Below, piece by piece: positions 11,962 through 62,762 of a stretch of 64,000 nt of DNA (within the stretch, counting starts at the first letter, position 1; every line of letters starts with the position of its first letter). Both the position numbers and the translations under genes were made by a program. The DNA comes from Leifsonia sp. PS1209. Lineage in GTDB: Bacteria > Actinomycetota > Actinomycetes > Actinomycetales > Microbacteriaceae. Where the stretch lies: contig NZ_CP051154.1 of the NCBI RefSeq assembly GCF_012317045.1, forward strand, positions 2,542,001-2,606,000, written 5' to 3'. The notes under the pieces were generated by a model, which did not search any database, was not told the DNA's origin, and was given only the letters and a program-made list of their open reading frames with translations.

Positions 11962-11967
11962 TCTCGA

Positions 11968-12011: not shown

Positions 12012-12029
12012 GGTAAGGTTAGCCTTACC
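12012..12029. promoter_or_regulatory. iron box (DtxR/IdeR-type operator) before efeU
   Basis: GGTAAGG-TTAG-CCTTACC, an inverted repeat with perfect 7-bp arms. It closely matches the iron-box pattern recognised by DtxR/IdeR (TTAGGTTAGSCTAACCTAA). It lies 31 bp before the efeU start, so iron-loaded repressor would shut down the whole efeUOB operon when iron is plentiful. Confidence 0.85.
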
Positions 12030-12060
12030 AATCCCCCATCCTCTCCCCCGAAAGTCCTCT

Positions 12061-12933: not shown

Positions 12934-12977
12934 ACAGCGTCGCACCGACGTCTCCCCGCGAACGAGAAAGCACAGCC

Positions 12978-14156: not shown

Positions 14157-14165
14157 GGTCGCGGG

Positions 14166-15479
14166 GTGACTTCGGAGACCACGGGCGAGAACGTGCCTGC
14201 AGCGGAGGAGGCCGGTCGGCCCGGCCTCTCCCGCCGCGGGCTGCTCGGGCTCGCCGGTGCGGCGGTCGGCGCCGGCGTCGTCGGTGTCGGCGCGGGCATC
14301 GCCGTGGACAGGGCGCTGCTCGGCGCATCCACCGACGCGTCGGCCACGTATCCCTTCTACGGAGAGCACCAGGCCGGGATCACCACGCCCGCGCAGGACA
14401 GGCTGCACTTCGCCACGTTCGACATCGCCGGCGACCTCGACCGCGCCGGGCTGATCGAGCTGCTGCAGGACTGGACCACCGCTGCTGCACGCATGACGCA
14501 GGGCCGCCCGGCCGGCAAGTACGGACCGGCCAGCGGGCCGATGGATGCGCCACCGGACGACACGGGAGAGGCCCTCGACCTGCCGGCCGGCGGGCTCACC
14601 CTCACCTTCGGGTTCGGCCCGACCCTGTTCGAGACGGAGGACGGGCGCGACCGCTTCGGCATCGCATCCCGTCGCCCTGCCGCCCTGGTCGACCTCCCGC
14701 ATTTCCCCGGCGACGCCCTGCAAGACGCGCTCGTCGGCGGCGACCTGTGCGTCCAGGCGTGCAGCGACGACCCGCAGGTGGCGGTGCACGCCATCCGCAA
14801 CCTGTCGAGGATCGCGTTCGGGCGCGCATCCATCCGGTGGTCGCAGCTCGGCTTCGGGCGCACGTCGTCCACGTCGAAGAGCCAGACCACGCCGCGCAAC
14901 CTGTTCGGGTTCAAAGACGGCACGGCCAACATCAAGTCGGAGGACACCACGGTGGTCGACGACCAGGTGTGGGCGGCCTCGGACGACGGCGCAGAGTGGA
15001 TGCGTGGAGGTTCGTACCTGGTGGCGCGCAAGATCCGCATGGTCATCGAGACCTGGGACAGGCAGCAGCTCGGCGAGCAGGAGCGCATCATCGGCCGCGA
15101 CAAGGGCGAGGGAGCACCGCTGTCGGGCGGCACGGAGTTCAGCGAGCCGAACTTCCTGGCGGTCTCCCCCACCGGCGGCACCAAGATCGACCCGGACTCG
15201 CACGTGCGCCTCGCGCATCCGTCGACCAACGGCGGCGCGCAGCTGCTGCGGCGCGGCTACAACTTCGTGGACGGCAACGACGAGCTCGGCCGCCTGAATG
15301 CCGGGCTGTTCTTCATCGCGTTCCAGCGCGACCCCCGTAAGCAGTTCATCCCGATCCAGTCACAGCTGGCCAAGAACGACGCGATGAACGAATACCTGAA
15401 GCACGTCGGCTCCGGCATCTTCGCCGTGCCGGGCGGCGCCGCCTCCGGCTCCTACGTCGGCGCGTCCCTCTTCGCCTGA
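14166..15479 (+). CDS. efeB: EfeB, Tat-exported DyP-type heme peroxidase/deferrochelatase
   Basis: A 437-aa dye-decolourising-type peroxidase, the third EfeUOB component, thought to oxidise ferrous iron or release iron from heme outside the membrane. A twin-arginine signal (SRRGLLGLAG followed by a Gly/Ala/Val core) is at about residues 22-50. The DyP signature GFKDGTANI and the heme-ligand region around DSHVRLAHP are present. The start is GTG 14166, nine bases after efeO, so transcription is clearly shared. A strong hairpin lies after the stop. Confidence 0.95.
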   Translation: MTSETTGENVPAAEEAGRPGLSRRGLLGLAGAAVGAGVVGVGAGIAVDRALLGASTDASATYPFYGEHQAGITTPAQDRLHFATFDIAGDLDRAGLIELLQDWTTAAARMTQGRPAGKYGPASGPMDAPPDDTGEALDLPAGGLTLTFGFGPTLFETEDGRDRFGIASRRPAALVDLPHFPGDALQDALVGGDLCVQACSDDPQVAVHAIRNLSRIAFGRASIRWSQLGFGRTSSTSKSQTTPRNLFGFKDGTANIKSEDTTVVDDQVWAASDDGAEWMRGGSYLVARKIRMVIETWDRQQLGEQERIIGRDKGEGAPLSGGTEFSEPNFLAVSPTGGTKIDPDSHVRLAHPSTNGGAQLLRRGYNFVDGNDELGRLNAGLFFIAFQRDPRKQFIPIQSQLAKNDAMNEYLKHVGSGIFAVPGGAASGSYVGASLFA

Positions 15480-15494
15480 CCCGCCCCCCAAACA

Positions 15495-15555
15495 ATCGAG
15501 CCGGGAGTTATGTACGCTGCGCTCGGCGCATCGCGTACACAACTCCCGGCTCGAT
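15495..15555. terminator. bidirectional terminator / dispersed palindrome
   Basis: Inverted repeat with 23-nt arms (15495-15517 and 15533-15555) differing at one position, containing ATCGAGCCGGGAGTT. It sits between the convergent efeB and typA genes and probably ends both transcripts. The right arm recurs at 17-39, and CAATCGAGCC is shared with the palindrome at 25843-25880, so it belongs to a small family of extragenic palindromes. Confidence 0.75.
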
Positions 15556-15571
15556 GGCGCCGGGACGCTGG

Positions 15572-17494
<1,923 letters not shown>

Positions 17495-17561
17495 GCGTGC
17501 AGACTCGACTCTCGTCAGAAGGATAAGTGGGGAACGGTCCATTCTATCAGGGGAATGGCGA

Positions 17562-17590
17562 AGGGCCCGACGCATCCCGCGCCGGGCCCT
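17562..17590 (-). terminator. hairpin terminator after the peptide ABC ATPase gene
   Basis: Perfect inverted repeat AGGGCCCG ... CGGGCCCT with a 13-nt loop, 30 bp past the stop of the ATPase gene and upstream of typA. It has no long U-run, as is usual in GC-rich actinobacteria. Bases 17495-17561 show no other clear element. Confidence 0.7.
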
Positions 17591-17619
17591 CCTCTGTGTG
17601 CTGGTGCGACGTGCGCGGG

Positions 17620-19473
17620 CTACAGCCCCTGCGCGACGGGCGGCTCCGCCTCCGGCAGGGTGACGGAGGGCACGACGCCCTCGTCGGAGCCGGCGGCCAG
17701 CAGTTCCAGCCGCAGCGTGCGGCGGGCGCGCTGCTGCTCGGGGTCCGGCAGCGGCACCGCGGCGAGGAGGCGCTGCGTGTACGCCTCCTTCGGGTAGCGG
17801 AGGATCTCGTTGCGGGTGCCGACCTCGACCAGGTTTCCGTGGTGCATCACCGCGATGCGGTCGGCGAGCACGTCGATGACGGCGAGGTCGTGGGTGATGA
17901 AGAGGCAGGCGAAGTTCATCTCGCGCTGCAGGTTCTGCATCAGGTCGAGCACGCGTGCCTGCACGGACACGTCGAGCGCGGAGGTCGGCTCGTCTGCGAT
18001 GAGCACCTGGGGCTTCAGCGACAGCGCGCGGGCGATGCCGACGCGCTGCTTCTGACCGCCGGAGAGCTCGTGCGGGAAGCGGCTGCGGTACGCGCGCGGC
18101 AGCTCGACGCTGTCGAGCAGGCGGTCGACCTCCTTCGCCAGGTCCTGGCCCTTGAGGCCCTTCGCCAGGCGCAGCGGCTCACCGATCGAGTCGGCGATCT
18201 GCAGGCGCGGGTTCAGCGACGACGACGGGTCCTGGAACACGATGCCGACGTTGCGGTGCAGTTTGCGGATCTCGTCGCGGTTCGCGTCGCTGATGTCCTG
18301 TCCTGCCACCACGAGCTTCCCGGAGTGGATGGGCAGCAGGCCGATCGCCGCACGGCCGAGGGTGGTCTTGCCCGAGCCGGACTCCCCCACCAGTCCGACG
18401 ACCTCTCCCTCGTGGATCTGCAGGCTGATGTCGCTCGCCGCGCGGAACGCGGGAACGCGTCCGTGCTTCGGGTACTCGATCGCCACGTTCTGGAAGTCGA
18501 CGACCACCGCGCGCTTGTCCATCTCGGACTTGGCGTGCTCCTCGGCGGCGATGCGCTCGTTGGTGCGGATGCGCTCGGCGTACTCGGCGTCCGGGTTCTC
18601 CGTGCCAGCCGCGAGGGCTGCCGTGGTGTCGATCGCGTCGTCGTCGCGCTGACCGAGGTGCGGGACCGCATCCAGCAGCGCGATCGTGTACGGGTGCTGC
18701 GGGGCGGCGAACACGTCGGCGACGGTGCCGGACTCGACGATGTCGCCCTTGCGCATCACGACGATGTTGTCCGCCAGGTCGGCGACGACGCCCATGTCGT
18801 GCGTGATCAGCAGGATGGCGCTGTCGAGGCGGTCGCGCAGCGAACGCAGCAGCTCCAGGATCTCAGCCTGCACCGTGACGTCGAGGGCCGTGGTCGGCTC
18901 GTCCGCGATGAGCAGCTTCGGGTCGCAGGAGATCGACTGCGCGATCATGGCGCGCTGCCGCTGACCGCCGGAGAGCTGGTGCGGGTAGGAGTTGAACGCC
19001 TTCACCGGGTCGGGCAGCTCGACCATGTCGAGCAGCTCGAGGGCGCGCTCCTTCGCCTCGTGCGGCGACATCCCGAAGTGGATGCGCAGGGTCTCGACGA
19101 TCTGGAAGCCCACCGTGTACACGGGGTTCAGCGCCGTCATCGGCTCCTGGAAGATCACGGACACCTGGCGTCCGCGCACGCGCCGCATCTGCTGCGGGGA
19201 GAGCCCGGTGAGCTCGCGGCCGTCGAGCTTGATGCTGCCGCGCACGCGCGAGTTCTGCGGCAGGAGGTCGAGGATCGCCATCGAGCTCGCGCTCTTGCCC
19301 GAGCCGGACTCGCCGACGATCGCCAGCACTTCGCCGGCCTTGATCGAGTAGTTGAGCTTCTTGGCCGCCGGCACCCAGACGTTGTCGACGCCGAAGTCCA
19401 CCGAGAGGTCGGTGACCTGCAGAACGGGGGCGTCGGTCACGACGCCGGCCTGACCGTTGGTGTTGTCGGTCAT
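17620..19473 (-). CDS. peptide ABC transporter, fused dual ATPase (DppD-DppF type)
   Basis: A 617-aa cytoplasmic subunit with two complete ABC domains. Each has a Walker A (GESGSGKSA in the first half, GESGSGKTT in the second), an ABC signature (LSGGQRQRAMIA; LSGGQKQRVGIA) and a Walker B (LLIADEPTTALD; VLIADEPTSALD). It powers uptake of di/oligopeptides or similar solutes by the neighbouring permeases. ATG 19473 follows GAAAGGAAC. It is downstream of the permease genes on the same strand but separated from them by an opposite-strand gene, so it likely has its own promoter inside or near that gene. Confidence 0.94.
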   Translation of the reverse strand: MTDNTNGQAGVVTDAPVLQVTDLSVDFGVDNVWVPAAKKLNYSIKAGEVLAIVGESGSGKSASSMAILDLLPQNSRVRGSIKLDGRELTGLSPQQMRRVRGRQVSVIFQEPMTALNPVYTVGFQIVETLRIHFGMSPHEAKERALELLDMVELPDPVKAFNSYPHQLSGGQRQRAMIAQSISCDPKLLIADEPTTALDVTVQAEILELLRSLRDRLDSAILLITHDMGVVADLADNIVVMRKGDIVESGTVADVFAAPQHPYTIALLDAVPHLGQRDDDAIDTTAALAAGTENPDAEYAERIRTNERIAAEEHAKSEMDKRAVVVDFQNVAIEYPKHGRVPAFRAASDISLQIHEGEVVGLVGESGSGKTTLGRAAIGLLPIHSGKLVVAGQDISDANRDEIRKLHRNVGIVFQDPSSSLNPRLQIADSIGEPLRLAKGLKGQDLAKEVDRLLDSVELPRAYRSRFPHELSGGQKQRVGIARALSLKPQVLIADEPTSALDVSVQARVLDLMQNLQREMNFACLFITHDLAVIDVLADRIAVMHHGNLVEVGTRNEILRYPKEAYTQRLLAAVPLPDPEQQRARRTLRLELLAAGSDEGVVPSVTLPEAEPPVAQGL

Positions 19474-19559
19474 GAGTTGATGTTCCTTTCGCGAGCGCCG
19501 GGGATCGCCCGGCGTCTCCGGTCGCCGTCCGCCGACGGAAGGAATGAGAGCATGGTCAC

Positions 19560-20186
19560 ATGCCTCACACCTCCGCCGACGAACGCGAGGTGTTCGTCTC
19601 CCGGTTCAACCGGGTCGTTGCCGCCCTGATCTGGGCGGCGTGCGCCGCGCTGAGCGTCGGACTGCTGGTGAGCATCCACGATCGGCGCCTGCTGTACATC
19701 GTTCCGTGCGTCTTCATCGCCCTGCTGGCGTGGGTCACGCTGTGGCGTCCGCTGTTCGTGGTCGATACCCGCGGCCTGACGGTGGTCAACGTGACCGGCA
19801 CCGTCGAGATCCCGTGGGAGGCGCTCATCAACGTCGACACGAAGTACGCACTGACGCTCTACACGCCCGGCCACAAGTACGCCGTCTGGTCGCTTCCGGC
19901 TCCCGGGACGTCCAGGACCCTGCGGGCGACCCGCAGCGAGACCAAGGGACGCGTCGGACGGCCGAGCGTCGAAGACAGTGTGCGCCGCCCGGGCGACCTG
20001 CTGTCCACCCCGTCCGGCGCGGCCGCCGAGGTGGTGCGCCGCCGCTGGACGCAGCTGCGCGACAGCGGAGCGCTGGAGGCGGGAATCGCCGACCAGACGC
20101 CCGTGACGGTGCGCTGGCACCTGGTGAGCCTTGCGGCCCTGGTGCTCCTGCTCGCCGGCACGGTCGCCGCCCTGCTCCTCGCCTGA
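19560..20186 (+). CDS. PH-like domain membrane protein
   Basis: A 208-aa protein with two N-terminal hydrophobic helices (AALIWAACAALSVGLLV; LYIVPCVFIALLAWVTLW), a central beta-rich section (FVVDTRGLTVVNVTGTVEIP) typical of bacterial PH (bPH_6) domains, and one C-terminal helix (LVSLAALVLLLAGTVAALLL). Function unknown; such proteins are common in actinobacteria. It points opposite to the flanking transporter genes and so interrupts what is normally one dpp operon. A GGAAGGA lies upstream, somewhat far from the ATG. Confidence 0.82.
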   Translation: MPHTSADEREVFVSRFNRVVAALIWAACAALSVGLLVSIHDRRLLYIVPCVFIALLAWVTLWRPLFVVDTRGLTVVNVTGTVEIPWEALINVDTKYALTLYTPGHKYAVWSLPAPGTSRTLRATRSETKGRVGRPSVEDSVRRPGDLLSTPSGAAAEVVRRRWTQLRDSGALEAGIADQTPVTVRWHLVSLAALVLLLAGTVAALLLA

Positions 20187-50452: not shown

Positions 50453-51862
50453 GTGACCGAAGCCAGACGCCCGGGCGCCGCCGTCGCAGCGCTCAGCGTC
50501 GGGACGCTGCTGAACCCGCTCAACTCGTCGATGATCGCGGTGGCGCTGGTATCGCTGCAGCACAGCTTCCGGGTGGACATCGCCACGGTCACCTGGGTCA
50601 TCACGTCGTTCTACCTGGCGTCGGCGGCGGGCCAGCCGCTGATGGGACGCTTCGCCGACCGGTTCGGCCCACGACGACTGTTCCTGTTCGGGATGCTCGT
50701 GGTCGCCGTCTCCTGCGCGCTCACCCCGTTCGCGTCGTCCTTCGTCGCGGTCTGCGCCGGACGGGTGGCTCTCGCCATCGGAACGGCGACGGCGTTCCCG
50801 TCCGCCATCGCGATGCTGCGGTCGATCACGGAGGCGGCGAGCGGTGGCGGCGGTGGCGCAGGGTCTCGGGCGGCGACGCCACGGCTGCTCGGGCGCATCC
50901 AGATCGCCAACACCTCGGGGGCCGCCATCGGGCCGGTGCTCGGCGGGGTGCTGGTGACGTTCCTCGGCTGGCAGGCGATCTTCTGGGTGAACGTCCCGAT
51001 CGCCGCCGTCGCGTTCGCCGGGGTGTGGCTGTTCGCGCCGCGCGACCCCGAGCGGATGAAGGCGCCGCTGCGGCAGGTGGTGGCCGAGTCGGACATCCCG
51101 GGCATCGTCGCGTTCGTGACGGCGCTGGCGACGCTGCTGGTGTTCCTGCTCGACCTGCGGCCGCAGCCGCTGTGGTGGCTGCTGCCGGTGAGCATCCTGG
51201 CCGGTGCGCTGTTCGTCTGGCGCGAGCTGCGCACCGCCCATCCGTTCCTCGACCTGCGGCTGCTCGCGGCGAACCGACGGCTGCTGATGGTCTACCTCTG
51301 CTTCGCGGTGTTCAACGTGGTCTACTACTCGGCGTTCTTCGGCCTGCCGCAGTACCTGCAGGAGTACGGCGGATACTCGGCGGGCATCGCCGGGCTGCTG
51401 ATGTTCCCCCTCGCGGCGGTGACGATCGTCGCCACCCCGTTCGCCGCGCGCGCCATCGAGCGCGTCGGCGTGCGAACCACCCTGCTGTGGGGAGCGTCGG
51501 CGCTGATCGTCGGAGCCGGGCTGCTCGCGGTCGGGGCGGCGACGACGGCGCCGGTGGTGGTGCTGGTGCTCACGGCCGTGCTCGGCGTGCCGTACTGCGT
51601 GGTGAGCATCGCGATGAACCAGGCGCTCTACTCGGCGGCCAGGCCGCAGGATGCGGGCGTCGCGGCCGGGATCTTCCAGACCTCACGCTACGTCGGGGCG
51701 ATCGTGGCGACCACGATGCTCGGGCTGCTGTTCACCGACGGGACGACCGCATCCACGTGGCTGGCGGCGGTGGGCATCGCGACCGGGCTCGCCGTCGTGC
51801 ACCTGGCGCTGCTCGTCTTCGTGCGCCCGCGCGGCACGGCGGAGGCGTCGCCCGCTCCGTAG
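50453..51862 (+). CDS. MFS transporter, DHA2 family
   Basis: A 469-aa proton-driven transporter of the 14-helix DHA2 type. The first helices (ALSVGTLLNPLNSSMIAVAL; WVITSFYLASAAGQPLMGRF) and motif A (GRFADRFGPRRLFL) are clear, and the antiporter motif region is IANTSGAAIGPVLGGVLVTF. GTG 50453 sits 7 nt after a TAGGCT box. A strong hairpin follows between it and the convergent giant gene. Confidence 0.92.
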   Translation: MTEARRPGAAVAALSVGTLLNPLNSSMIAVALVSLQHSFRVDIATVTWVITSFYLASAAGQPLMGRFADRFGPRRLFLFGMLVVAVSCALTPFASSFVAVCAGRVALAIGTATAFPSAIAMLRSITEAASGGGGGAGSRAATPRLLGRIQIANTSGAAIGPVLGGVLVTFLGWQAIFWVNVPIAAVAFAGVWLFAPRDPERMKAPLRQVVAESDIPGIVAFVTALATLLVFLLDLRPQPLWWLLPVSILAGALFVWRELRTAHPFLDLRLLAANRRLLMVYLCFAVFNVVYYSAFFGLPQYLQEYGGYSAGIAGLLMFPLAAVTIVATPFAARAIERVGVRTTLLWGASALIVGAGLLAVGAATTAPVVVLVLTAVLGVPYCVVSIAMNQALYSAARPQDAGVAAGIFQTSRYVGAIVATTMLGLLFTDGTTASTWLAAVGIATGLAVVHLALLVFVRPRGTAEASPAP

Positions 51863-51906
51863 AAGCGGAGACGGTGGCCGACACGCCGCGGCGCACTCCG
51901 CAACAA

Positions 51907-51940
51907 CGGAGATCGCGCGCGACGTGCCCCGCGATCTCCG
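51907..51940. terminator. bidirectional hairpin terminator
   Basis: CGGAGATCGCG ... CGCGATCTCCG, perfect 11-bp arms with a 12-nt loop, in the 101-bp gap between the convergent MFS gene and the giant-gene operon. It probably terminates both transcripts. Confidence 0.8.
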
Positions 51941-51963
51941 CGCGAGCGGCGCCCGCCCCCGCG

Positions 51964-54900
51964 CTACAGCTCCACGTCGGCCGCGAACACGAGGCGCTGC
52001 TCCCAGACGCGTCCATCCGGGTAGACGCGCGTGTCCTCCGGCGCAGGCGGATCGCCGGGGAAGCGTTCCCACTCCTCCACGTGCACCCGCCAGCCCGGGT
52101 TATGGCCCGGCCTGCTGAGCGGGATCACCACTCCGGCGTCCAGCTCGCCCACCCAGGCGCCCTCGAACGCGTTCGCTCCCGTGCCACGCAGCACCAGCTC
52201 GCCGGTCGCCACCGTGCGCCAGCCCAGATCGCCGCCGATCGACGGGTCGACGGTCTGGATGCTCGCCACCAGCAGCCGGTTCTCGTCCGCCGGGCGCGCG
52301 AACGCCCCCTCCAGCCCGAACCGCGGCGCCGTGGTGTCGCGGGTGATCCCGCGCGTCCCGCTGACCACCACCCTGACGTGCGTGTCGTCCGTGCGGCTGA
52401 CGCTCGCGATCCGCTCGGGGGTGAGCTGCACGAAATCGCAGCGCACCGGCGACGACAGGTGCTCCCCGGCGACGCTGTCCGGCTGGTAGCGCGCCACCGC
52501 GAGTCGCACGAACGGCCAGAACGCCGTGCCGGGGTCGATCGCGATGTCCACGAACCAGAGCTTCCGCTCCGCGCTGTACTGCGGCCGGTAACCGACCGCG
52601 AGCACGTTCCTGTCAGTGACCCCGGCGGGGAGTGGGAGAGATACAGCCGGGGTCACCGGTCGGCCGGGGCGCGGCTCGTCGTCGATGCCGGAGGCGTGCA
52701 GCAGATCGTCCAGCTGCAGGGTCTTCAGCGGCCGGGCGGCCACGGGGGCGCTCAGCCAGATCGGGTCGCCGCCCCACTGGCTCACGTACGGGAAGCCTGT
52801 ACCGGGATCGTCGGCCGGTTCGCCGAAGGCGTCGTTCCCGTTGGCCGCGAGCAGCACCGCGAGCAGCTCGCCCTCCCCGCTGGAGTACCACGGGCGCTGC
52901 AGGTAGATGCGCACCCCGGCCTGCCTGGTGACGCGCCGCGCCATCGGCTGCTCGGGTTCGACGCCCTCGTTCCAGCGGAACAGCGGAAGCACCGAGTGGA
53001 TGAGCGGAGCGGCAGGGCGCGCGCTCGACGGCACGGAGACCTCCACCGTCTCCCCGATCACGCTCGCGCCGTCGTCCAGCGGATTCGCCGGATCGCCGCG
53101 CAGCAGCTCCGGCGCGAAATACTCGCGGAACCGCGTCGCCGCCCGGAAGAAGTACGAGACGCGGCGGTGCTTGGTGTCCGCGAACCGGTGCGTGGACTCG
53201 TGGGTGCGCAGCGGACCGTAGCCGGGAAGCGTCACGACCGCGTCGTGCCCGGCGAGCACCGCCACCTGCTCGTCGGCGACGATGGCCGTCGTGAACGCGA
53301 TGGCGTCGGTGTGGCTGGTGGACGGCGCATCCTGAGCGATGTCGTCGACCGGCTCGTCCCACGACGCCTGCGCGGTGATGCTGTCCGTGCTCTGCCCGTC
53401 GACGTCGACCCCGCCGAACAGGAACGCGGAGGTGTCCCCCGGCAACCGGAAGGCGTGCAGCACGGTCGGCCGCGGTGCGACGAGCGGGCGGGGCACGGCG
53501 TGCACGAAGGTGAGGTCCTCGAACGGGCTCAGCCCCCACAGCCAGCCGTCGACAGCGGCCTCGCGCACCTCCGGCGTCTGCTGAAGCACGGCGGCGAAGC
53601 TGCGCCAGACCCCCAGCCAGTCGAGCCGGGAGCGCACGAGGCTGCTCGCCAGCCGCGCCCGCTGCACATCGCCCGGGGGCAGCACGAACCGGATGCGGCC
53701 GCTCGCGACGGCGGAGTCGAGCACGTCGCCGCCCTCCAGCGACAGCAGGAACGGCTGCCGATCCGGCCAATCGCCTCGGTATGCCGCGGTGAACCCCTCC
53801 GTGCCGAACGGGAAGCGGATGGTCCTGCCCGCACCCGCCTCCGGGAACACGAGGCTGACGCCGTCGGCCAGCGGGTCCGGCAGATACGGCAGCTCCAGCT
53901 CGTCGACGTCGTGCACCACGTACTGCCCGGGAGCGGGCGCGTCCCCCGGCCGCAGGCGCAGCCGCTCGACCGCCGGGTCGGGATCGGGGAGCTCCCCCGG
54001 CCGCAGGGCGAGCATCCTGAGCCCGTTTGCCGGGGAGGGCACGGGCTGGCTTCCGTCCGCTTCGAGGGTCTGACTGAGCAGCGCCATGCCCGGTTGCTGG
54101 ATGCGCGCGCCAACCGTGGAGAGGTCGGCCACGTCCACGTCGAAGAAGCTGCCGTTCTCGCGGAGGATCGCGGCGAGCGCCTCTCGTTGCGCTGCCGCAC
54201 GCTGCGCCGCGGTCTGGCCGTCGCCGATGGCCGCGTCGAACTCGCCGTGCTGCTCCGCTTGGATCTGGCTGGTCTTCGGCGCAGCCAGGTGGCGTTCGGT
54301 GTCTGCGCCGTAGCCGTGTGCGGCGTCGACGCTCGCCGCGTATGCCGCAGGCTCCGTCACAGTGATCGCGAGGGTCTCCGGATCCTGGGTCACGCCGGAG
54401 CGCACCACGAGCACACGCAGAGACTCCCCCTCCGTGAAGCGGCGGCGCGGCACCAGGGCCGGAGACGGGACGGGGTCCCAGCGCAGGAACGGGACGAGCG
54501 GGGTCACCTTCTTCATCGCGGCGCGGAGCGCTGCGGCGACCACGGCGGGGTCGAGCGCGGCACCGGCCCCGCCCTGGAACTCGGGCTGACCGGTGAGCTG
54601 GGCGGCGGCGATGGCGGCGAGCCGCGACGGGTCGCGCGTGATCGTCGGCTCGGCGAACGGGATCGCGGGGTCGACGACGGCCGCGGCGAAGGCCGCATCC
54701 ACGAGACTGCGGCGGTCGGCGGCTCGGCCGAAGGCGGCCGCCGCGCCCGCCGTCTGCCTGGCCGCGGCCGGGCCGGCCTGCGCCGTCGCCCGCACCCGGG
54801 CGAGCAGCCCGTCGATCACCGCACTCGGCGCGGCGCCGGTGGGCGCGGCCGCGAACGCTCCGCGCAGGGTCTCCGCCGCATCCGGTTGCCTGTCGTCGGC

Positions 54901-56790
54901 CTGGATGGTCTCCTCGGTCGTGAGCGCCGCGTCCTCCACCGCGAGCCGCGCCTCGTGCAGCGCGGCCGTCCCGTCGCGCAGCCCGGACAGCACCGGCCCG
55001 ATCGTCGCGCCCGGTGCGTCGAAGAGCGGAGGCGGCACCGTCTGCAGCCCGGCGAGCAGCACCTCCGGGGGCGGTCCAGGCGGAAGCGGCTGCGGGTTGA
55101 GCTCGTCGGCGCGGGTGTTGCCGGCGAGGTCAACCTGCCAGGCGCGGAACGCGTACGACCGCCCGAACCGCAGCCGCGGCAGCGTTCCGGGAGCCACCCG
55201 GTTGGCGAAGCGCAGTGGATGCGTCGGGTCCGGCACGTCGTCCGGCACGTCTTCGACCACCTCTACCGTCTGCTCGCGTCCGTCGACCACCTGCTGCTCG
55301 TTGCGCACGCGCTTGCCCGGCCGAGGAGCGGACAGGCTCCACCCCTCCCAGCCGAACACCGCCTCGTGCACGTTCACCGGGTTCGCCGGATCCCCCGGCG
55401 TCTGGTTGGCCGCCGTCCCCTGGATGAAGCCCTGCTCGGGGAGCGCCGTGAACACCGGGGTGTACGTGCCGTCGTCGTGGCGGGCGTCGATGTCGGCGAG
55501 CCGGGCGTGCAGCGACGACCATGTACGCACGGTGTCGTCCCAGACCTCCACGCGCATCCCGCGGGTGACCTGCTCGGTGAACAGGTCGGGCACGGCCGTG
55601 GTCTCCAGGGCGGCCTGGTGCGCCAGCTGGTCTTTCGCGCTCTGGGCCTCCTCCGCGCGGGAGACGGTGAGCCCGCTCGCGCGCATCGCGGGGGTGGCGG
55701 CATTGACCGGGTCGTCGTTGTCCTGCACGTGCAGCAGCCGGGGCAGTGTCCAGAGGAATCGCTCCGTCTTGAGCGCTGTGCCGTCGGCGTCGAGGTCGAG
55801 CACCGAGAACAGGCTGTCGTCGCCGATGGCGAGCGATCCGTCGATCCAGTCGCCGGTCTGCGCGACCGTCACGAACGTGCCGTCGCCGAGGGCGCGCACG
55901 AACACGTGCGTCGGGCGGCACGCCGCGGCGTACCCGCTGACCGTCAGCACCGCGCTCAGCCAGCGCGACGAGAGCAGCCTCGCCGGGTCTGTCACCCGCA
56001 GGTCGATCACCAGCCCCGTCTTCCTCAGCAGCGCTGGGTGGTCGCCGATCGTGCCGACCCGCTCGTGGAACTCCGGGCCCTGCCGAGGGAGACCGACCGG
56101 CTGGGTGTCCGGCATCTCCTGATACGGCTGCGCGGACTCGGGCCGCTCGTAGTACCGCCTGGCGCGGTGCAGCTCGCCGAGAGCGCGCAGGAACCAGTCC
56201 TCGTTCGCGGCGATCCTCCGCGAGATCTCCTGCGGCTCCGCGTCGGTCTCGATCGACTCGTCCAGGAACGCCGTCAGCCTGGCCTCGTCGAACTCGGGCC
56301 TGCGGCGGTCGTCCCCTCCGTGCACCGGCCAGCGCTGCGCCATCCCGAGCGCCTGCTGGGCCAGTGGATGCGCGGACGGCGCGGGCGGGCTCGTCGGGTC
56401 GGACAGCACGGTCGCCAGGTGCACCAGCTTGCCGATGTCGTGCACCGACCGCGCGGAGAACCCGCGCCACCTGTTCTGGTCGAGCCGAGGGACGGGGTTG
56501 CCTCTCACCGGGGTGTCCGGAGGGAAGATCGTGTCCCAGACGCCCGCATCCGGTGCGAGCGCCGCGGTGGTCGCGACGGTGCAGTCGATGGCGCCTGCGT
56601 CGTCGGCGAGCTCGATCGTGAGCCCGTCGAGCACCTGCGCCGCCCAGTGCGGGAACAGCGCGAACGTGTCCAGCCTGGCGGTCGCGGCATCCGGCACCAG
56701 CTTCGGGCTGACGAACACCGAGACGTGGGCGTCGGCGTCCGGCCTCGTCGACCGAGGGAGCACGGTCGTCATGAATGTCTCGGTGCTCAT
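51964..56790 (-). CDS. giant hypothetical protein (1608 aa), last gene of the unknown cluster
   Basis: A 1608-aa protein I cannot assign. It starts MSTETFMTTVLPRSTRPDAD with no signal peptide or transmembrane segment, so it looks cytosolic or exported by an unconventional route. Near residue 550 is RFGRSYAFRAWQVDLAGN, a fibronectin-like beta pattern; residues about 590-770 are Ala-rich and helical. Conserved-looking motifs follow (LPYLPDPLADGVSLVFPEAG; YLQRPWYSSGEGELLAVLL; FVRLAVARYQPDSVAGEHLS), all of which I remember only from unannotated large proteins. ATG 56790 overlaps the preceding giant gene's stop (ATGA), so the two are translationally coupled. Codon use equals the neighbours; no sign of recent transfer. 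Confidence 0.85.
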   Translation of the reverse strand: MSTETFMTTVLPRSTRPDADAHVSVFVSPKLVPDAATARLDTFALFPHWAAQVLDGLTIELADDAGAIDCTVATTAALAPDAGVWDTIFPPDTPVRGNPVPRLDQNRWRGFSARSVHDIGKLVHLATVLSDPTSPPAPSAHPLAQQALGMAQRWPVHGGDDRRRPEFDEARLTAFLDESIETDAEPQEISRRIAANEDWFLRALGELHRARRYYERPESAQPYQEMPDTQPVGLPRQGPEFHERVGTIGDHPALLRKTGLVIDLRVTDPARLLSSRWLSAVLTVSGYAAACRPTHVFVRALGDGTFVTVAQTGDWIDGSLAIGDDSLFSVLDLDADGTALKTERFLWTLPRLLHVQDNDDPVNAATPAMRASGLTVSRAEEAQSAKDQLAHQAALETTAVPDLFTEQVTRGMRVEVWDDTVRTWSSLHARLADIDARHDDGTYTPVFTALPEQGFIQGTAANQTPGDPANPVNVHEAVFGWEGWSLSAPRPGKRVRNEQQVVDGREQTVEVVEDVPDDVPDPTHPLRFANRVAPGTLPRLRFGRSYAFRAWQVDLAGNTRADELNPQPLPPGPPPEVLLAGLQTVPPPLFDAPGATIGPVLSGLRDGTAALHEARLAVEDAALTTEETIQADDRQPDAAETLRGAFAAAPTGAAPSAVIDGLLARVRATAQAGPAAARQTAGAAAAFGRAADRRSLVDAAFAAAVVDPAIPFAEPTITRDPSRLAAIAAAQLTGQPEFQGGAGAALDPAVVAAALRAAMKKVTPLVPFLRWDPVPSPALVPRRRFTEGESLRVLVVRSGVTQDPETLAITVTEPAAYAASVDAAHGYGADTERHLAAPKTSQIQAEQHGEFDAAIGDGQTAAQRAAAQREALAAILRENGSFFDVDVADLSTVGARIQQPGMALLSQTLEADGSQPVPSPANGLRMLALRPGELPDPDPAVERLRLRPGDAPAPGQYVVHDVDELELPYLPDPLADGVSLVFPEAGAGRTIRFPFGTEGFTAAYRGDWPDRQPFLLSLEGGDVLDSAVASGRIRFVLPPGDVQRARLASSLVRSRLDWLGVWRSFAAVLQQTPEVREAAVDGWLWGLSPFEDLTFVHAVPRPLVAPRPTVLHAFRLPGDTSAFLFGGVDVDGQSTDSITAQASWDEPVDDIAQDAPSTSHTDAIAFTTAIVADEQVAVLAGHDAVVTLPGYGPLRTHESTHRFADTKHRRVSYFFRAATRFREYFAPELLRGDPANPLDDGASVIGETVEVSVPSSARPAAPLIHSVLPLFRWNEGVEPEQPMARRVTRQAGVRIYLQRPWYSSGEGELLAVLLAANGNDAFGEPADDPGTGFPYVSQWGGDPIWLSAPVAARPLKTLQLDDLLHASGIDDEPRPGRPVTPAVSLPLPAGVTDRNVLAVGYRPQYSAERKLWFVDIAIDPGTAFWPFVRLAVARYQPDSVAGEHLSSPVRCDFVQLTPERIASVSRTDDTHVRVVVSGTRGITRDTTAPRFGLEGAFARPADENRLLVASIQTVDPSIGGDLGWRTVATGELVLRGTGANAFEGAWVGELDAGVVIPLSRPGHNPGWRVHVEEWERFPGDPPAPEDTRVYPDGRVWEQRLVFAADVEL

Positions 56791-59700
56791 GCCGGCACCC
56801 CTTCCGCGCCGAATGCTTCGCAATAGTCGCTCCACGCCGGTGATGTGCCGTCCGGCTCGCACATCACCTCGCGGAAACTCGGGTCTCCGTTCGAGCCGGC
56901 GAACTGCCGTTCGGCGCTGATCTGCACGGAGGCGGAGAAGAACAGCACCTTCACCTGCACCGTGATCGTCGCCCGGCCGATCATCTTGCCGGTGTTGAAC
57001 TGGTACACGAGCTCCATGTAGAGCTCGATCGACGCGGAGATGAGGCCGAGCACATCCACTTCGCCGCGCAGCCGGAAGTAGCCGGTGAGCGAACCCTTGT
57101 CCGCCTCCAACCGGATGTAGATGCCGATCATCGCCGAGATCGACCCGGAGGCGACCCCCAGGTCGACGGCCAGGCACGCCCCGGCCTCCAGCCCGATCTC
57201 CAGGATCTCCAGCTTCTTCGGCCCGATGCGCATCCCAAACCAGCCTCCGCCGCCGAGGAACACGACGGCGAGTGTGAACGGCCGCTCCCTGGTGCAGAAG
57301 TTGAACCCGACGGTGACGCTCTTGCCGAGGAACGGCACCTGCACGTCGGCGCCGAGCGACATGTTCGACAGGTTGAAGACACCGATGGCCACGTTCGGCA
57401 GCGCGAGCGTGAAGCCCGCGCTCAGGCCGGACGGAGACACGTCCAGGAACGGCGGATCGGAGAACCCGTCGAACGGGATCAGCTCCTTGATCACCTCCAC
57501 GAACGAGAGCAGGCCGACGAACTTCAGGTCGCCGAGCACCACGTCCACGTCGGTCTTGCCGTTGGAGCCCGCCTTGAACGACATGTGCTCGAACGGCACC
57601 CGGATGAGCGGGGCGCCCGGCAGAAGGTTCAGCTGGAAGTCGCGCAGCTCGGCGAGCACGTCCACCGTGACGTCGCCTGTCGCGCTCGCCCGGCCGTCGA
57701 TGGCGATCACCAGGCTGTCCTTCTGCAGGCTCAGGATGGGGTCTCCCGCCGGCCACGACCGCATCTCCGGCTTCCACTCGAACCGGAAGCGCACCTGCGG
57801 ACTGTCGGAGGCGAGGCCGCGGAGGAAGTCGATGGCCTTGAGCGCAGCATCCACGTCGGCGACGATCGGGTCGATGGCCTTCTTCAGCGACGCCAGCTGG
57901 TTGGCGGCGAACACCGGGAGGCCGCCGATGGCGAGGACCCCGTCGAGCGCGGCGCCGAGTTGCCCGATGGCGCCCTGTAACTCAGCGGGCGTGACGGTCG
58001 GCGGCGACGCCACCGCTCCGGCGAGCTGGCCGGGGAACGCGGTCACGAGCGACACGATGGTGTTCTTCGACGCCAGCACGCTGTCCCGGATCGCCGTGGC
58101 CTTCGCCACCGCGTCCTGGGAGCGGTCGGCCGCCTTGTCGACGGCGAGCTGCGCATCCCGCACGGCCTGCTCCACCGCATCCCGCAGCCGTTGCACATCG
58201 TCGAGGAAGCCCTCGATCAGCTGCACCGCCTGGGAGACGACCTTCGGCAAGGCGAGCGGCTCCCCGGTGACCGCCTCGATCACGTCCACCAGGTCGACCA
58301 GCCCGAACAGTTTGGGCAGCGCGCCCTTGAGATAGTCGACGGGGTTGAAGTCGAGGTCGATGGCGTTGTCGATGTCGCCGACCGGGCCGGACAGCGCAGA
58401 GACGCCGCGGATCGGCAGGTTCGGCGCGACGAAGCCGCCGCCCTTGTCCGTGCCGCTGGTCGAGCCGGCCCCGCCGAACGACAGGGAGGGCAACGGGATG
58501 CCGTGCGCGGTGAGGTCGGGGAAGTCCGCTGCCGTGATGGTCCCGTCGTCCGCCAGGACGTTCGCCCACACCTGGCCGGGGTTGCCGGCGTCCAGCCCGG
58601 TGGAGAGGAACTGCTTGGCGTACGAGACCGGCAGGCTCGGCGTGGCGGACAGGTGCTGCACGGCGGGGAGCACCACGTCGGCGGAGCTCATCGTGGGGGT
58701 CGACGAGCCGACCACCGGGGTGCCGAGCAGCCGGACGGTCTGCGTCTCCGCCTGCGCGTCCCCCGCTCCGGTCGACGGGCGCGGCGCGAACGCGATCCGC
58801 TGTCCGTGCGCCGCCACCTCCCTGTCCGGGTCGGTGTCGTATTTGGCGTGGATGACCGTGGCGAAGTCGGGCGGCTGCACGGACTCGCTGACCCACAGCA
58901 TCGGGAAGCTCAGCCGGATCGGCTGCGTGTCCCTGTCGACGGTGTTCACGACCCAGCGGAATCGCTGCCCGCCGATGGTCGGCCAGAACGACGAGTTCTC
59001 CTGCGCGCCGGGGTCGTCGATCACCGGGGTGACGGACGGCTGCAGCTCGATGGAGGCGAACGGGAAGTCCCGCTGACCGGCGTAGCCGCGCGAGCGCTCC
59101 AGCAGAACGATGAACTTGCGCTGGTACAGCCCGGCGTACGACCCGCCGGTCGCCGCTTTCATCTTCCGCTCGGTGACCTTGATCAGCGCCGCCTTGTGTC
59201 CGAGCGGGAACAGGTATCCCGGATATGCGACGCGCACGTACTGGTCCCGGCCGAACGGAGCCTGGTGGTCCCAGGCGAGCACCGAGGCGAGACCGGCGAG
59301 CGAGTATGGCAGGGTGGGCCAGGCGCCGTGCAGGTCGAGGGTCGCGCCGAGCCCGGACAGCCACAGCGCCTTCGCCCCGACCGGGAGGGGGTCGATGCGG
59401 CTTCGCCGGTTTTTCGCCAGCCACGACTCGGAGGTCTGCCGCACCAGCCGGTGGCGGTCGGCGGCGTTCAGCGACGCCCGGAACGGCGCATCGCCGCCGA
59501 GCGGGGGGACCGTGAACGCGCCTCCCGCCTGGTCGATGGCCGCCGACTGCCACTGCGCGGCGGTGACGCTGTCCCTGTCGCGCGTCCAGATCGCGCGCAC
59601 CACCCGGTGGTCGGCGTCCCGCTCATCCGGTGCTGCTGGATCGTCGGAGGCGACCCCGAGCCGCGAGTGCCACAGCTCGACGAACCCGGGAGCCGTCGCA

Positions 59701-60941
59701 CTCGGCACGGGTGCGACGGCGTGCGCCCAGCGGCCGTCTGCGGTGGGCGAGATCATCAGCCGGAACGGCGCCTCGATGGCGGTCTGCCCGCGATCCGGCT
59801 TGTCGCTGAGGATGGGGCGGGTGCGCGGCAGGTTCCCGAAGCCGCCGCCCAGGATCGGGCCGTCCAGGATCGGGCCGCGCGGCACGGCATCGACCAGGTC
59901 GCCGTCGAGCCCGCCGAGCTTCACCCCGTCGGACACGACCGGGCGGACGGCGGACAGGGAGGCGCGCACCTGCCCGAGCGCCTTCGCGTTCGAGACGAGG
60001 TTGTCGAGCGTGACGGGACCGGCGACCTTCCGCTGCTGGGCGGCGGTCACCGTCTCCAGGACCACCCCGCCGCCGGTGAGCGTGGCGAGGATCCCCTTCC
60101 CGACGACGACGCGCTGCTCGAACCCGCCCGCCTTCGCCCCTGCGCCCTGCTGGGCGGCGGCCGGGTTGTCGCCCGGGTTCCACGGGGCGGGCGCCGTTCC
60201 TGACGGCGCGGCCAGGGGATGCAGTACAGGCTCGAGCCGGGTGATCGCAGCCAGGAGGCCCTCCGACGTGAACGGGATGCTCTCGCCGTCCGGAATCGCG
60301 AACACCAGCCGCGACCCGCGCGCCGGACGGTGCCCGACGATCGGATGCACGGTCGCGCCCGGCGGGGACGGCGTCGCCGGGTCTGCGATCGGCTTCCCGG
60401 TGACGGGGTCGACGATGAGCGCCGGCGGACCGGTGGGCGCCTCGTAGAGCGCCTCCTCGTGCAGGTGCTGGAACGCGAAGTCGACCGTCATGGTGGACGG
60501 GTGGGCGGCGTCGGGGGCGCCGGGTGCGGGCGCGGGTGCGCCGGGCGCGGGCGTTGGCGTGATGGTCGGGTTGGCGCCCTCGGTGAGGGTGCATCCGGTG
60601 AAGGTGACGGTGAGGGCGAGCAGATCCTCCGGACGGATCAGGTCGGCGACGATGTCTGTGCTCGCTGCGAGGTCCGGCCCCCCGAACGCGATCCCCGGAT
60701 GGCCGACCCTCCTCCACGACGCGGCGAAGCGCAGGGTGGGGGTGATGGTGGCCGGGGGCGCCTCGGGTTCGGCTTTCGCCGGCGCCCGCCGGCCGCGCGC
60801 GGCGCCGGCTTTCGCGGTCCCGGGGTCTGCCGCTGCTTTCGAGCGTCTCGTGGACCCGGCCGCGGGTGTCGGTGCGGCCCCTGCGCCGCCCGTCGCGCGT
60901 AGTTCGTCCTGCCGTTTTCTGTTGTTCTGCCCTGCAGACAT
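56787..60941 (-). CDS. giant hypothetical protein (1384 aa), beta-rich C-terminus
   Basis: A 1384-aa protein of unknown function. Residues 1-65 are basic and Ala-rich (RKRQDELRATGG), and a Pro/Ala linker (PTPAPGAPAPAPG) lies near residue 130. Residues about 870-1020 are helical or coiled-coil (LRDAVEQAVRDAQLAVDKAA). From about 1110 to 1350 come regular amphipathic beta strands (FTLALPNVAIGVFNLSNMSL; FTLAVVFLGGGGWFGMRIG; YFRLRGEVDVLGLISASIEL) that could form a long sheet or barrel-like groove. They remind me of DUF6603-type proteins, unverified. No signal peptide or clear transmembrane helix. ATG 60941 has GGTGAG upstream. It ends inside the next gene's start (ATGA). Confidence 0.85.
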   Translation of the reverse strand: MSAGQNNRKRQDELRATGGAGAAPTPAAGSTRRSKAAADPGTAKAGAARGRRAPAKAEPEAPPATITPTLRFAASWRRVGHPGIAFGGPDLAASTDIVADLIRPEDLLALTVTFTGCTLTEGANPTITPTPAPGAPAPAPGAPDAAHPSTMTVDFAFQHLHEEALYEAPTGPPALIVDPVTGKPIADPATPSPPGATVHPIVGHRPARGSRLVFAIPDGESIPFTSEGLLAAITRLEPVLHPLAAPSGTAPAPWNPGDNPAAAQQGAGAKAGGFEQRVVVGKGILATLTGGGVVLETVTAAQQRKVAGPVTLDNLVSNAKALGQVRASLSAVRPVVSDGVKLGGLDGDLVDAVPRGPILDGPILGGGFGNLPRTRPILSDKPDRGQTAIEAPFRLMISPTADGRWAHAVAPVPSATAPGFVELWHSRLGVASDDPAAPDERDADHRVVRAIWTRDRDSVTAAQWQSAAIDQAGGAFTVPPLGGDAPFRASLNAADRHRLVRQTSESWLAKNRRSRIDPLPVGAKALWLSGLGATLDLHGAWPTLPYSLAGLASVLAWDHQAPFGRDQYVRVAYPGYLFPLGHKAALIKVTERKMKAATGGSYAGLYQRKFIVLLERSRGYAGQRDFPFASIELQPSVTPVIDDPGAQENSSFWPTIGGQRFRWVVNTVDRDTQPIRLSFPMLWVSESVQPPDFATVIHAKYDTDPDREVAAHGQRIAFAPRPSTGAGDAQAETQTVRLLGTPVVGSSTPTMSSADVVLPAVQHLSATPSLPVSYAKQFLSTGLDAGNPGQVWANVLADDGTITAADFPDLTAHGIPLPSLSFGGAGSTSGTDKGGGFVAPNLPIRGVSALSGPVGDIDNAIDLDFNPVDYLKGALPKLFGLVDLVDVIEAVTGEPLALPKVVSQAVQLIEGFLDDVQRLRDAVEQAVRDAQLAVDKAADRSQDAVAKATAIRDSVLASKNTIVSLVTAFPGQLAGAVASPPTVTPAELQGAIGQLGAALDGVLAIGGLPVFAANQLASLKKAIDPIVADVDAALKAIDFLRGLASDSPQVRFRFEWKPEMRSWPAGDPILSLQKDSLVIAIDGRASATGDVTVDVLAELRDFQLNLLPGAPLIRVPFEHMSFKAGSNGKTDVDVVLGDLKFVGLLSFVEVIKELIPFDGFSDPPFLDVSPSGLSAGFTLALPNVAIGVFNLSNMSLGADVQVPFLGKSVTVGFNFCTRERPFTLAVVFLGGGGWFGMRIGPKKLEILEIGLEAGACLAVDLGVASGSISAMIGIYIRLEADKGSLTGYFRLRGEVDVLGLISASIELYMELVYQFNTGKMIGRATITVQVKVLFFSASVQISAERQFAGSNGDPSFREVMCEPDGTSPAWSDYCEAFGAEGVPA

Positions 60942-60954
60942 GGGCTCACCGTTC

Positions 60955-61197
60955 TCATCGAAAGTCTTGGAAAGTCTTCGAGAGCAGGGTGTCCGCTTCA
61001 GCCCGGCGGCTGGAACGATGCCGTTGACGGAGAAAGTATGCTCCGGCACCCACCGTCTGCGCCAGGGTTTTCTGAGATTTCTTCGACTGACGCCGGATTG
61101 CTGCGTGCATCCTGCTGTCGTGCATCCTGCTGTCGTGCGCCGCCGGACCCGGCACTGTGCCGTGTCCGGCGACCGTCCAGCTGCGGGAGTCTGCCAC
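60955..61197 (-). CDS. possible small basic protein (80 aa)
   Basis: An open frame that exactly fills the 274-bp gap between the 124-aa repeat protein and the 1384-aa protein (18 bp and 13 bp spacers). The product is basic (RRQSKKSQKTLAQ; RQRHRSSRR) and contains the short repeat HDSRMHDSRMH. The start would be GTG 61197, with only a weak ribosome site. Third-position GC is about 70%, below the neighbours, and the DNA is less GC-rich than the genes around it. It may be a real small gene or just leader sequence for the giant gene. Confidence 0.3.
   Translation of the reverse strand: MADSRSWTVAGHGTVPGPAAHDSRMHDSRMHAAIRRQSKKSQKTLAQTVGAGAYFLRQRHRSSRRAEADTLLSKTFQDFR
61105..61134. repeat. 15-bp tandem duplication
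   Basis: GTGCATCCTGCTGTC occurs twice in direct succession (61105-61119 and 61120-61134), then begins a third time (GTGC). It lies in the gap before the 1384-aa protein gene. In the possible small ORF it encodes the repeated HDSRM. Confidence 0.7.
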
Positions 61198-61215
61198 TGC
61201 CCGCAGCGTGACGTT

Positions 61216-61590
61216 TCAGTACGCGGCCTCCCGGTCGCGCCCTTCCGGCGGATGCACCCGTTCGTCGGTGTCTCCGTCGTTCCTGTCGAGGTCGCCGAGC
61301 GGCGCCAGGTCCCCCGGTTCGTCGCGGACCGCATCCCGTGGCACGGCCCGCTCGTCGGCGTCCGCGTCGTCGTCGATCCGGTCGATGTCACCGAGCGGCG
61401 CAAGCTCCCTCGGTTCGTCGCGGACCGCATCCCGAGGCACAGCCCGCTCGTCGTTGTCGTCCGCCCTGTCCAGCTCGGCGAACGGTCCGACGTCTTTCGC
61501 GTCGTACGCATCGTGCCGCGGGTTCGCCCGCTCGTCGACGTCCCCGTCCGTCCGGCCGACGTCGCCCCACGGCAGCACTTCGTGCTCCAT
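61216..61590 (-). CDS. acidic tandem-repeat protein (124 aa)
   Basis: A 124-aa, Asp/Arg/Glu-rich hydrophilic protein of unknown function, starting MEHEVLPWGDVGRTDGD. It consists of four consecutive repeats of about 28-32 residues (7-35, 36-64, 65-96, 97-124). The core DERAVPRDAVRDEP occurs identically in repeats 2 and 3, and P-x-G/A-D/E-L/I-D-R opens each unit. Strongly charged and probably disordered, it could be a binding or scaffolding partner for the giant proteins. GC3 is high, supporting a real gene. It begins 5 bp after the stop of the 90-aa protein gene. Confidence 0.7.
   Translation of the reverse strand: MEHEVLPWGDVGRTDGDVDERANPRHDAYDAKDVGPFAELDRADDNDERAVPRDAVRDEPRELAPLGDIDRIDDDADADERAVPRDAVRDEPGDLAPLGDLDRNDGDTDERVHPPEGRDREAAY
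61219..61572. repeat. coding tandem repeats (about 96-bp period)
   Basis: DNA underlying the four protein repeats of the 124-aa protein. The best copies share CGGTTCGTCGCGGACCGCAT at a 96-bp offset (from 61315 and 61411 on the plus strand). Outer copies have diverged. The periodicity suggests the gene grew by unit duplication. Confidence 0.7.
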
Positions 61591-61595
61591 GAGCG

Positions 61596-61868
61596 TCAGA
61601 CCGTCTGCAGTGCGGTGATCTGGGCGAGGTTGTTCGGCCCGCCCGCGTTGGTCGCCCGGTACTGCAGCCGCTTCCCCGTCCCCATCGCCGCGGTGGCGAC
61701 GGCCAGGATGTTCGACCGCTCCGCATCGGTGTCGGCCCAGATGCGCCTCCACCCGACGCGCCCCAGCTCATGGCTGAAGTCGATCCAGGAGCTGCCTCCC
61801 CCGGTGAAGACGTTGTTGATGACCGCTGTATATCCCTGAACCCAATGACTGTCGTCCCACGCTGACAT
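61596..61868 (-). CDS. small hypothetical protein (90 aa), first gene of the giant-protein cluster
   Basis: A 90-aa protein, MSAWDDSHWVQGYTAVINNV at the start and ending GGPNNLAQITALQTV. I do not recognise it. No signal peptide; aromatic-rich N-terminus and a short predicted helix-strand C-terminus (RSNILAVATAAMGTGKRLQY). ATG 61868 has a well-placed GGAGG 7 nt upstream. It precedes the repeat protein by 5 bp and thus heads the apparent operon that contains both giant genes. A CATAAT box at 61959-61964 (minus) could be a -10 element but has no good -35. Confidence 0.72.
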   Translation of the reverse strand: MSAWDDSHWVQGYTAVINNVFTGGGSSWIDFSHELGRVGWRRIWADTDAERSNILAVATAAMGTGKRLQYRATNAGGPNNLAQITALQTV

Positions 61869-62015
61869 GGCACGCCTCCAGATGGCTTTGTTTCCGCGTT
61901 CCTTCGAGCAGGGCCGCACTCACCCCTCGACGGCCGACAGAAGGCCGTGACGCGCCCGATTATGCTCCTCCCCACACACGACACGCCAGACGAATGTGAG
62001 AGAAACTCTAAATAA

Positions 62016-62035
62016 GGTGGACGGGATGGTCCACC
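62016..62035. promoter_or_regulatory. inverted repeat in the divergent gap (possible operator)
   Basis: GGTGGAC-GGGATG-GTCCACC, perfect 7-bp arms, in the 201-bp AT-richer gap between the giant-protein operon (minus) and the hydrolase gene (plus). It lies 22 bp upstream of the TAGCGT box at 62058-62063 and could be an operator for either side. Confidence 0.4.
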
Positions 62036-62057
62036 AGGCACGTGCGCCAGGGAGCGG

Positions 62058-62063
62058 TAGCGT
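62058..62063 (+). promoter_or_regulatory. leaderless-type -10 box (TAGCGT)
   Basis: TAGCGT lies 6 nt before the ATG of the alpha/beta hydrolase gene, which lacks a ribosome site. Confidence 0.5.
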
Positions 62064-62069
62064 CGGTTT

Positions 62070-62762
62070 ATGCGCACCGCCGATATCGTCACCGTCGAGA
62101 CGACCCTCGGGCCCGGGCGGCTCACCGTGTCTGCCGCGGACGCGGACGCCGCGTCCGCCGCCGCTGCCACTCCGCGCCCGCGGGCGGTCCTCTGGCTCGG
62201 CCACGGAGCAGGCGGAGGCATCGAAGCGGTCGACCTCGCCGCCCTGGCCGCCGCCCTTCCGGTCCTCGGGATCACTGTCGTCCGCTACGAGCAGCCGTGG
62301 CGCGTCGCCGGCAAACGCGTCGCCTCCCGCCCCGCCGCCCTCGACACCGCCTGGCTCGAAACCGCCCCCGCCGTCGAGAAGATCGCCGACGGCCTGCCCA
62401 TCCTGGTGGGCGGCCGCAGCGCCGGTGCCCGCGTGGCCTGCCGCACCGCCGCATCCACGGGGGCAGCCGCCGTGGTCTGCCTGGCGTTCCCGCTGCATCC
62501 ACCGGGCCGGCCAGACACGAGCAGGCTGGACGAACTGCTCACCCCCGACGTGCCCGTGCTGGTACTGCAGGGCGAGCGCGACACGTTCGGCACCGCGGCC
62601 ACCGTCGCCGCCGAGACCGAGGGACGCCCGAGCATCCGGGTAGTCCCGGTACCCGGCGCCGACCACGGGATGCGGGTGCTCGCGTCGTCCCCGTTCCCCG
62701 CCGCCGCGGTGCGGGAGCTGCTGGTGTCTCAGGTGGCGGCGTTCGTGGACGGGGTGGTGTGA
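62070..62762 (+). CDS. alpha/beta hydrolase (KANL3/Tex30-like)
   Basis: A 230-aa hydrolase-fold protein. The oxyanion/strand signature LGHGAGGGIEAVDLAALA is at about residue 50, the nucleophile elbow is GRSAG with Ser117, then QGERDTFG supplies an acid and PGADHGMRV the histidine. It matches small dienelactone-hydrolase-like enzymes; substrate unknown. It ends one base before the next gene's ATG, so both are cotranscribed. Confidence 0.88.
   Translation: MRTADIVTVETTLGPGRLTVSAADADAASAAAATPRPRAVLWLGHGAGGGIEAVDLAALAAALPVLGITVVRYEQPWRVAGKRVASRPAALDTAWLETAPAVEKIADGLPILVGGRSAGARVACRTAASTGAAAVVCLAFPLHPPGRPDTSRLDELLTPDVPVLVLQGERDTFGTAATVAAETEGRPSIRVVPVPGADHGMRVLASSPFPAAAVRELLVSQVAAFVDGVV

Follow-up and report, generated by a model that had tools for sequence, protein, structure and literature searches.

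A conserved pair of giant bacterial genes without a significant match in the family libraries searched

What do two giant genes encode when they overlap and neither product resembles a named family, and do they belong together? The question arises from a window of 64,000 nucleotides of Leifsonia sp. PS1209, this being the whole stretch of DNA analysed, in which gene A (56787..60941, minus strand; 1384 aa) is followed by gene B (51964..56790, minus strand; 1608 aa). An ORF check bore out both reading frames, as well as the ATGA in which the stop of A and the start of B overlap. Their codon use is native, as had been claimed, with correlations of 0.972 (A) and 0.965 (B) against 13 reference ORFs of the window, five of which fall below 0.75 against the remainder and are perhaps misframed. 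With an E-value limit of 0.001, protein searches, which scored only the candidates with the most shared words, gave 531 relatives for A and 606 for B, and with relatives in the hundreds these ORFs are not a product of chance. The safest statement is that A and B are a new conserved two-protein system.

The first-pass annotation could name no motif in either protein, and the libraries agree: scans of Pfam, NCBIfam, PHROGs, PADLOC and the PDB sequences gave no significant match for either. With E 1 as the limit, A is unmatched in Pfam, NCBIfam, PADLOC and the PDB sequences, and PHROGs gave a single tail-protein match (E 0.1) to its helical part. At the same limit B is unmatched in Pfam, PHROGs and PADLOC, and the PDB-sequence match reaches only E 0.76. 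An identity of B as the enzyme D-cysteine desulfhydrase was rejected (NCBIfam E 0.004, 16.3 bits, cut-off 429). A known anti-phage defence system was likewise rejected, window A and B having no PADLOC model match; a JetB match in one relative (PADLOC, E 0.0022) and a ZorA match in one of 25 A tails (NCBIfam, E 1.3e-6) were taken as coiled-coil similarity. Broad alignments (88 rows for A, 81 for B) contain no invariant His or Cys. One His and one Cys of A and four His of B are kept in at least 90% of these rows, and invariant His does occur in the narrower alignments, so that an argument from the lack of invariant His or Cys was dropped as weak. Narrow term searches of the open-access PMC literature found no description of the pair. 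On the strength of these scans and searches the pair is rated as lying outside the known kinds, into one of which a solved fold could still place it. A giant gene pair that is found in at least five bacterial phyla and is unmatched in the family libraries used represents a sizeable blind spot.

The association of the two genes holds across genomes. A genome scan confirmed 155 stretches, of which 80 loci were kept, and antisense shadow ORFs, a large share of the initial clusters, were filtered out. Of the 82 ORF sets from these loci and the window genome, all contain A and 81 contain B. B lies downstream of A in 76 of 81 loci, with a median gap of 3 bp; 74 of the 76 gaps are within 100 bp and the other two are 198 and 866 bp, starts being over-extended in places. 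The five exceptions go back to failed gene calling or to an end of the DNA: in L059, L070 and L079 no A was retained by the script, the stretch of L060 ends inside A, and in L003 1514 bp remain past A. The trees of A and B, compared for the 62 of 81 loci that have both long ORFs, agree with a Mantel r of 0.920 (at most 0.106 in 1000 permutations) and have 45 of 59 splits in common. This agreement is joint inheritance, a pattern which descent within the same lineages alone would also give. No constant third gene was seen among the neighbour families listed: in a scan of 75 of the 76 same-strand neighbours, leaving out one gene of 1212 aa, no Pfam family occurs in more than three of the 75 among the 25 families listed of 81. 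For A and B, then, neither a strong match to a known family nor a lack of co-occurrence turned up, and the earlier view of a real conserved pair without a significant family match stands. Coupling and co-inheritance suggest that A and B form a physical complex; the fixed stoichiometry that had been read into them does not follow from this.

The small ORFs that were thought to lead a five-gene unit fare differently. These are a 90-aa ORF (61596..61868), an acidic 124-aa ORF with a tandem repeat (61216..61590) and an 80-aa ORF (60955..61197), all on the minus strand. They are absent from the second Leifsonia A-B locus and from all other loci compared; by tblastn at E 1e-4 the three match only the window's own genome among these loci, and of 28 genus genomes one has the 90-aa ORF and one the 124-aa ORF. 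On this basis they were ruled out as members of the unit. The 90-aa ORF, which has four relatives outside its own cluster, is probably a rare real gene, and both it and the 124-aa ORF lie outside the conserved unit. The 80-aa ORF, put forward as a possible gene, looks non-coding (GTG start, GC3 0.69, codon correlation 0.58) and is probably not a gene. Spacers of 5 bp had been described for this front part; the gap between the 90-aa and 124-aa ORFs is indeed 5 bp, and that from the 124-aa ORF to A is 274 bp. The tandem repeat is real, consisting of 1.9 copies of a 96-bp unit at 61275-61453. In some relatives (e.g. L154, L166) the corresponding interval holds another, different small ORF that is also acidic. 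A hairpin past B (51890..51966, minus strand), earlier called a strong terminator, is a possible one: shuffled sequences nearly match it (z -1.59) and a terminator scan did not list it. The first-pass annotation is confirmed for the giant pair, the overlap, the repeat and the codon use, and is not borne out for the unit led by small ORFs and the strength of its terminator.

The pair is patchily distributed and seems to have moved across phyla. Loci come from Actinomycetota, Pseudomonadota, Bacteroidota, Balneolota and Chlorobiota. A 25-row profile of A matches 14 of 396 phylum genomes, to be read as 12 to 14, since two of the matches (E 3.9e-6 and 7.9e-4) cover the helical stretch only. Among plasmid records, A was found in 19 and B in 14. 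The tree of A needs seven changes of phylum, where the minimum is four, and in it Phycicoccus has a Lysobacterales bin as its sister group, at a node with starred support; the same two pair in the tree of B. The simplest reading would be cross-phylum transfer of A-B, a mis-binned contig being possible for the Lysobacterales bin. It is worth adding that on an Agrobacterium vitis plasmid (L093, 17688-32504) the pair directly precedes a dpd cluster (dpdE-J), and that in Nocardia abscessus (L035, 9233-22888) a second A-B pair follows the first and runs off the end of the stretch.

Structures were predicted with AlphaFold, in models that left out A residues 1-184 and B residues 1-408. A is predicted to contain a helical bundle or coiled coil (residues 908-1040; 57822..58220, minus strand), corresponding to helices 724-856 of the model and also indicated by profile matches, and behind this bundle an amphipathic antiparallel β-meander (residues 1048-1347; 56901..57800, minus strand). 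In 15 of the 17 meander strands the two faces are 2.7-5.3 Kyte-Doolittle units apart, as compared with 4 of 12 strands in the middle part of A, and the best-conserved stretch of A is residues ~1135-1334. The profile matches to residues 908-1040 are a mixture of helical and coiled-coil proteins; helical matches to PDB chains, apolipoprotein, ZorA and MCE models were set aside as reflecting composition. The tail of B (residues 1104-1608; 51967..53481, minus strand) weakly matches Ig-like folds, including a pilin and an adhesin, in Foldseek lists from which the absence of a fold does not exclude it. The predicted amphipathicity and the weak fold matches point to a possible lipid or membrane role for A-B.

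Signs of export are found in relatives. The Tat call used here was our own pattern, a twin arginine plus a hydrophobic stretch. Window A has none in its first 400 residues, and neither true N-terminus shows a Tat-like pattern or a strongly hydrophobic stretch, in keeping with the claimed absence of a signal peptide. Among relatives, the pattern occurs within the first 75 residues of 5 of 76 A, none of 67 B and 2 of 673 other called genes; within the first 400 residues the counts for A and B are unchanged and that for other genes is 7 of 673. The five A proteins form one clade (Bacteroidota, Balneolota and Chlorobiota). In nine plasmid records, some of them fetched following rhizobial hits and two with split copies, five of nine A are Tat-like (Sinorhizobium, Rhizobium, Ruegeria, Agrobacterium and Streptomyces) and none of nine B. 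B is without a Tat-like signal in 76 of 76, one Streptomyces B being judged from an annotated start inside the gene. Pfam TAT_signal has no match in four Bacteroidota-group A N-termini or in the Streptomyces A, and matches the Ruegeria A weakly (E 0.0036, under the cut-off). A pair on a Rhizobium ruizarguesonis plasmid (L085, 5257-20460; A 2489 aa, B 2569 aa) has no Tat-like signal, unlike the other rhizobial giants. On Sinorhizobium plasmid pC an annotated tatA begins 49 bp past B. Across 186 loci the TatA pattern was otherwise met in one unrelated ORF (L028) and in one TatA-like ORF of an Ensifer plasmid, which directly follows a piece of B in a fetched stretch where no A relative was found.

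LysM domains occur in the A of one Nocardia, one Williamsia and one Mycolicibacterium. By eye, the Mycolicibacterium A (L028, 8207-13228) has a start that resembles a peptidoglycan-binding domain and repeats like a lectin β-propeller; Pfam gives only two LysM further in, and no family match for the repeats. In four of the five Bacteroidota-group loci the gene right behind B encodes a protein whose N-terminus is hydrophobic and whose last residue is tryptophan. An exported or lipid-handling assembly, suggested earlier from the window, fits the relatives' Tat-like signals and LysM domains and the amphipathic β-meander. Export is indicated by a minority of lineages and does not follow from them for the window pair, whose A is signal-less. 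That earlier interpretation is supported as regards the conserved pair and the signs in relatives, and not as regards the small proteins.

In Ensifer, Ruegeria, Bradyrhizobium and Williamsia, peptidase genes (M10, M35, M23, S8) are found no more than ~2 kb from the pair, an association uncontrolled for chance. In Williamsia (L047, ~5900-19900) genes for a subtilase, an alpha/beta hydrolase, A, B, a tyrosinase and a further small protein are closely spaced on one strand. A PpoB2 copper chaperone match is found in 2 of 75 neighbours, and judged by position this neighbour is probably the next gene of the Williamsia run.

The reading that we prefer, with a probability of about 0.38, is that A and B are two subunits of one large complex whose place of action, at least in several lineages, is extracytoplasmic, with A facing membrane or lipid and B as the scaffold. 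A would end in the long amphipathic β-meander, and the helical bundle, B or lipid would have to shield the hydrophobic face of this meander; B would be elongated, with an Ig-like tail. Encoded by overlapping genes, the two would be made together and assemble in the cytoplasm. Where A carries a Tat signal, a single folded cargo would leave, the signal-less B riding on A; LysM domains may fix some versions to the cell wall, and enzymes encoded nearby in some genomes (proteases, tyrosinase, hydrolases) may be carried or matured by the complex. The Leifsonia pair, being signal-less, would work alike via another route.

There is a precedent for such co-export in the Tat hitchhiker complexes HybOC and PaoABC, for which a passage of PMC4273604 describes a signal on one subunit and signal-less partners carried along. 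As in these complexes, A bears a signal in some lineages and B never does. They are cofactor-containing redox enzymes, however, whereas no enzyme family is matched by A or B, which are also far larger, and most A are signal-less. Size is the best argument against co-export: part of PMC6708511 states a Tat cargo size of up to 150 kDa, and the Sinorhizobium A-B cargo would be ~530 kDa (3052 + 1766 aa, at an assumed 110 Da per residue). We consider it doubtful that the pair is a new class of two-protein envelope machine, exported by Tat in some lineages as one folded cargo of ~350-570 kDa (masses on the same assumption), with its own TatA helping in rhizobia and B dependent on the signal of A. 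If the Tat reading is true, the pair offers a natural test of the size of folded complex that the pathway can move.

A two-part weapon that attacks membranes is unlikely, if worth weighing. Here the bundle and B would keep A soluble, the meander would insert into the membrane of a rival or host, and B would provide binding arms. The genes are accessory, patchy and apparently moved across phyla, with copies on plasmids typed as conjugative and with peptidase and phospholipase genes beside some copies, and the meander is barrel-like. Yet the families listed include no third gene that is constant, as an immunity partner might be, and no toxin family is found in window A, in window B or in 30 B proteins, from which Tc and Rhs-repeat Pfam domains are also absent. 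Among the closest known systems are outer-membrane β-barrels (CymA, the EspP barrel and OmpG), which would call for a closed amphipathic meander; the window A model has a meander. Unlike these, window A has no Sec-like N-terminus (the top 16-residue hydrophobicity in the first 70 residues is 0.24) and no terminal aromatic residue, its C-terminus being AEGVPA. Leifsonia has no outer membrane.

A further reading, which we regard as improbable, is a cell-surface adhesin or coat in which Ig-like domains of B extend outwards and A anchors to wall or membrane. The pilin and adhesin among the weak matches, the LysM domains of some A and the lectin-like Mycolicibacterium repeats fit it, but an anchor or S-layer domain is absent from window A and B and from 30 B proteins, most members are signal-less, and the meander is left unexplained. 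A chain of Ig-like domains would also liken B to alpha-2-macroglobulin and complement, which provide its best Foldseek hit (E 8.7e-5); the TM score is, however, 0.09, and A2M/MG Pfam domains are absent from window B and from all 30 B proteins.

We give equally little credence to the idea that most members form a cytoplasmic lipid-carrying particle or coat lipid inclusions, export having been gained later in a few lineages. It would suit the lack of a signal in most members, the combination of helical bundle and amphipathic sheet, and the apolipoprotein-like helices of one giant A (Pfam E 4.1e-8, 33.6 bits, cut-off 90). The weak top Foldseek hit of A is moreover a lipid-transfer protein: MTP chains are its top three hits, and MTP and vitellogenin resemble the model of A in having a helical part and a large amphipathic β-sheet. 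These hits have a probability of only 0.15-0.28 and a TM score of 0.07, with no sequence match, and window A has no lipid-transfer (vitellogenin/MTP) Pfam domain. Coiled coils match such helical models through composition, and an outward direction is indicated by the LysM fusions and by the Tat-like forms, which occur in separate lineages. If the lipid reading is true, the pair would be a test of large lipid- or membrane-binding particles in bacteria.

That the pair is what remains of a phage tail or contractile injection particle, or is related to one, is highly improbable, and phage origin was rejected: the LysM/Phage_tail_X match in the Nocardia A and the weak tail-protein matches (PHROG and viral fold search) stand against the absence of A relatives from IMG/VR contigs and 50,697 phage records, and against the absence of tail, tube, sheath and baseplate genes among the 25 families listed of 81 from 75 neighbours.

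Within the genus, the last 500 residues of A match in 2 of 28 genomes, and the pair occupies a variable site. On the plus strand this is flanked on the left by an MFS-transporter-like gene (50453..51862), convergent with B, and on the right by a hydrolase-like gene (62070..62762), both named by eye. The interval between such genes was fetched in 20 of 27 other genus genomes, and one of the 20, from Leifsonia sp. Root227, holds A-B at the equivalent site; ~420 bp lie between the hydrolase match and A, and all three small ORFs are missing. This locus (L151) is identical with L002 of the genome scan. The remaining 19 hold neither A nor B and measure from ~160 bp to 8.6 kb. The interval (51863-62069 in the window; L151-L170 for the genus) is thus variable, and the longer examples hold differing genes.
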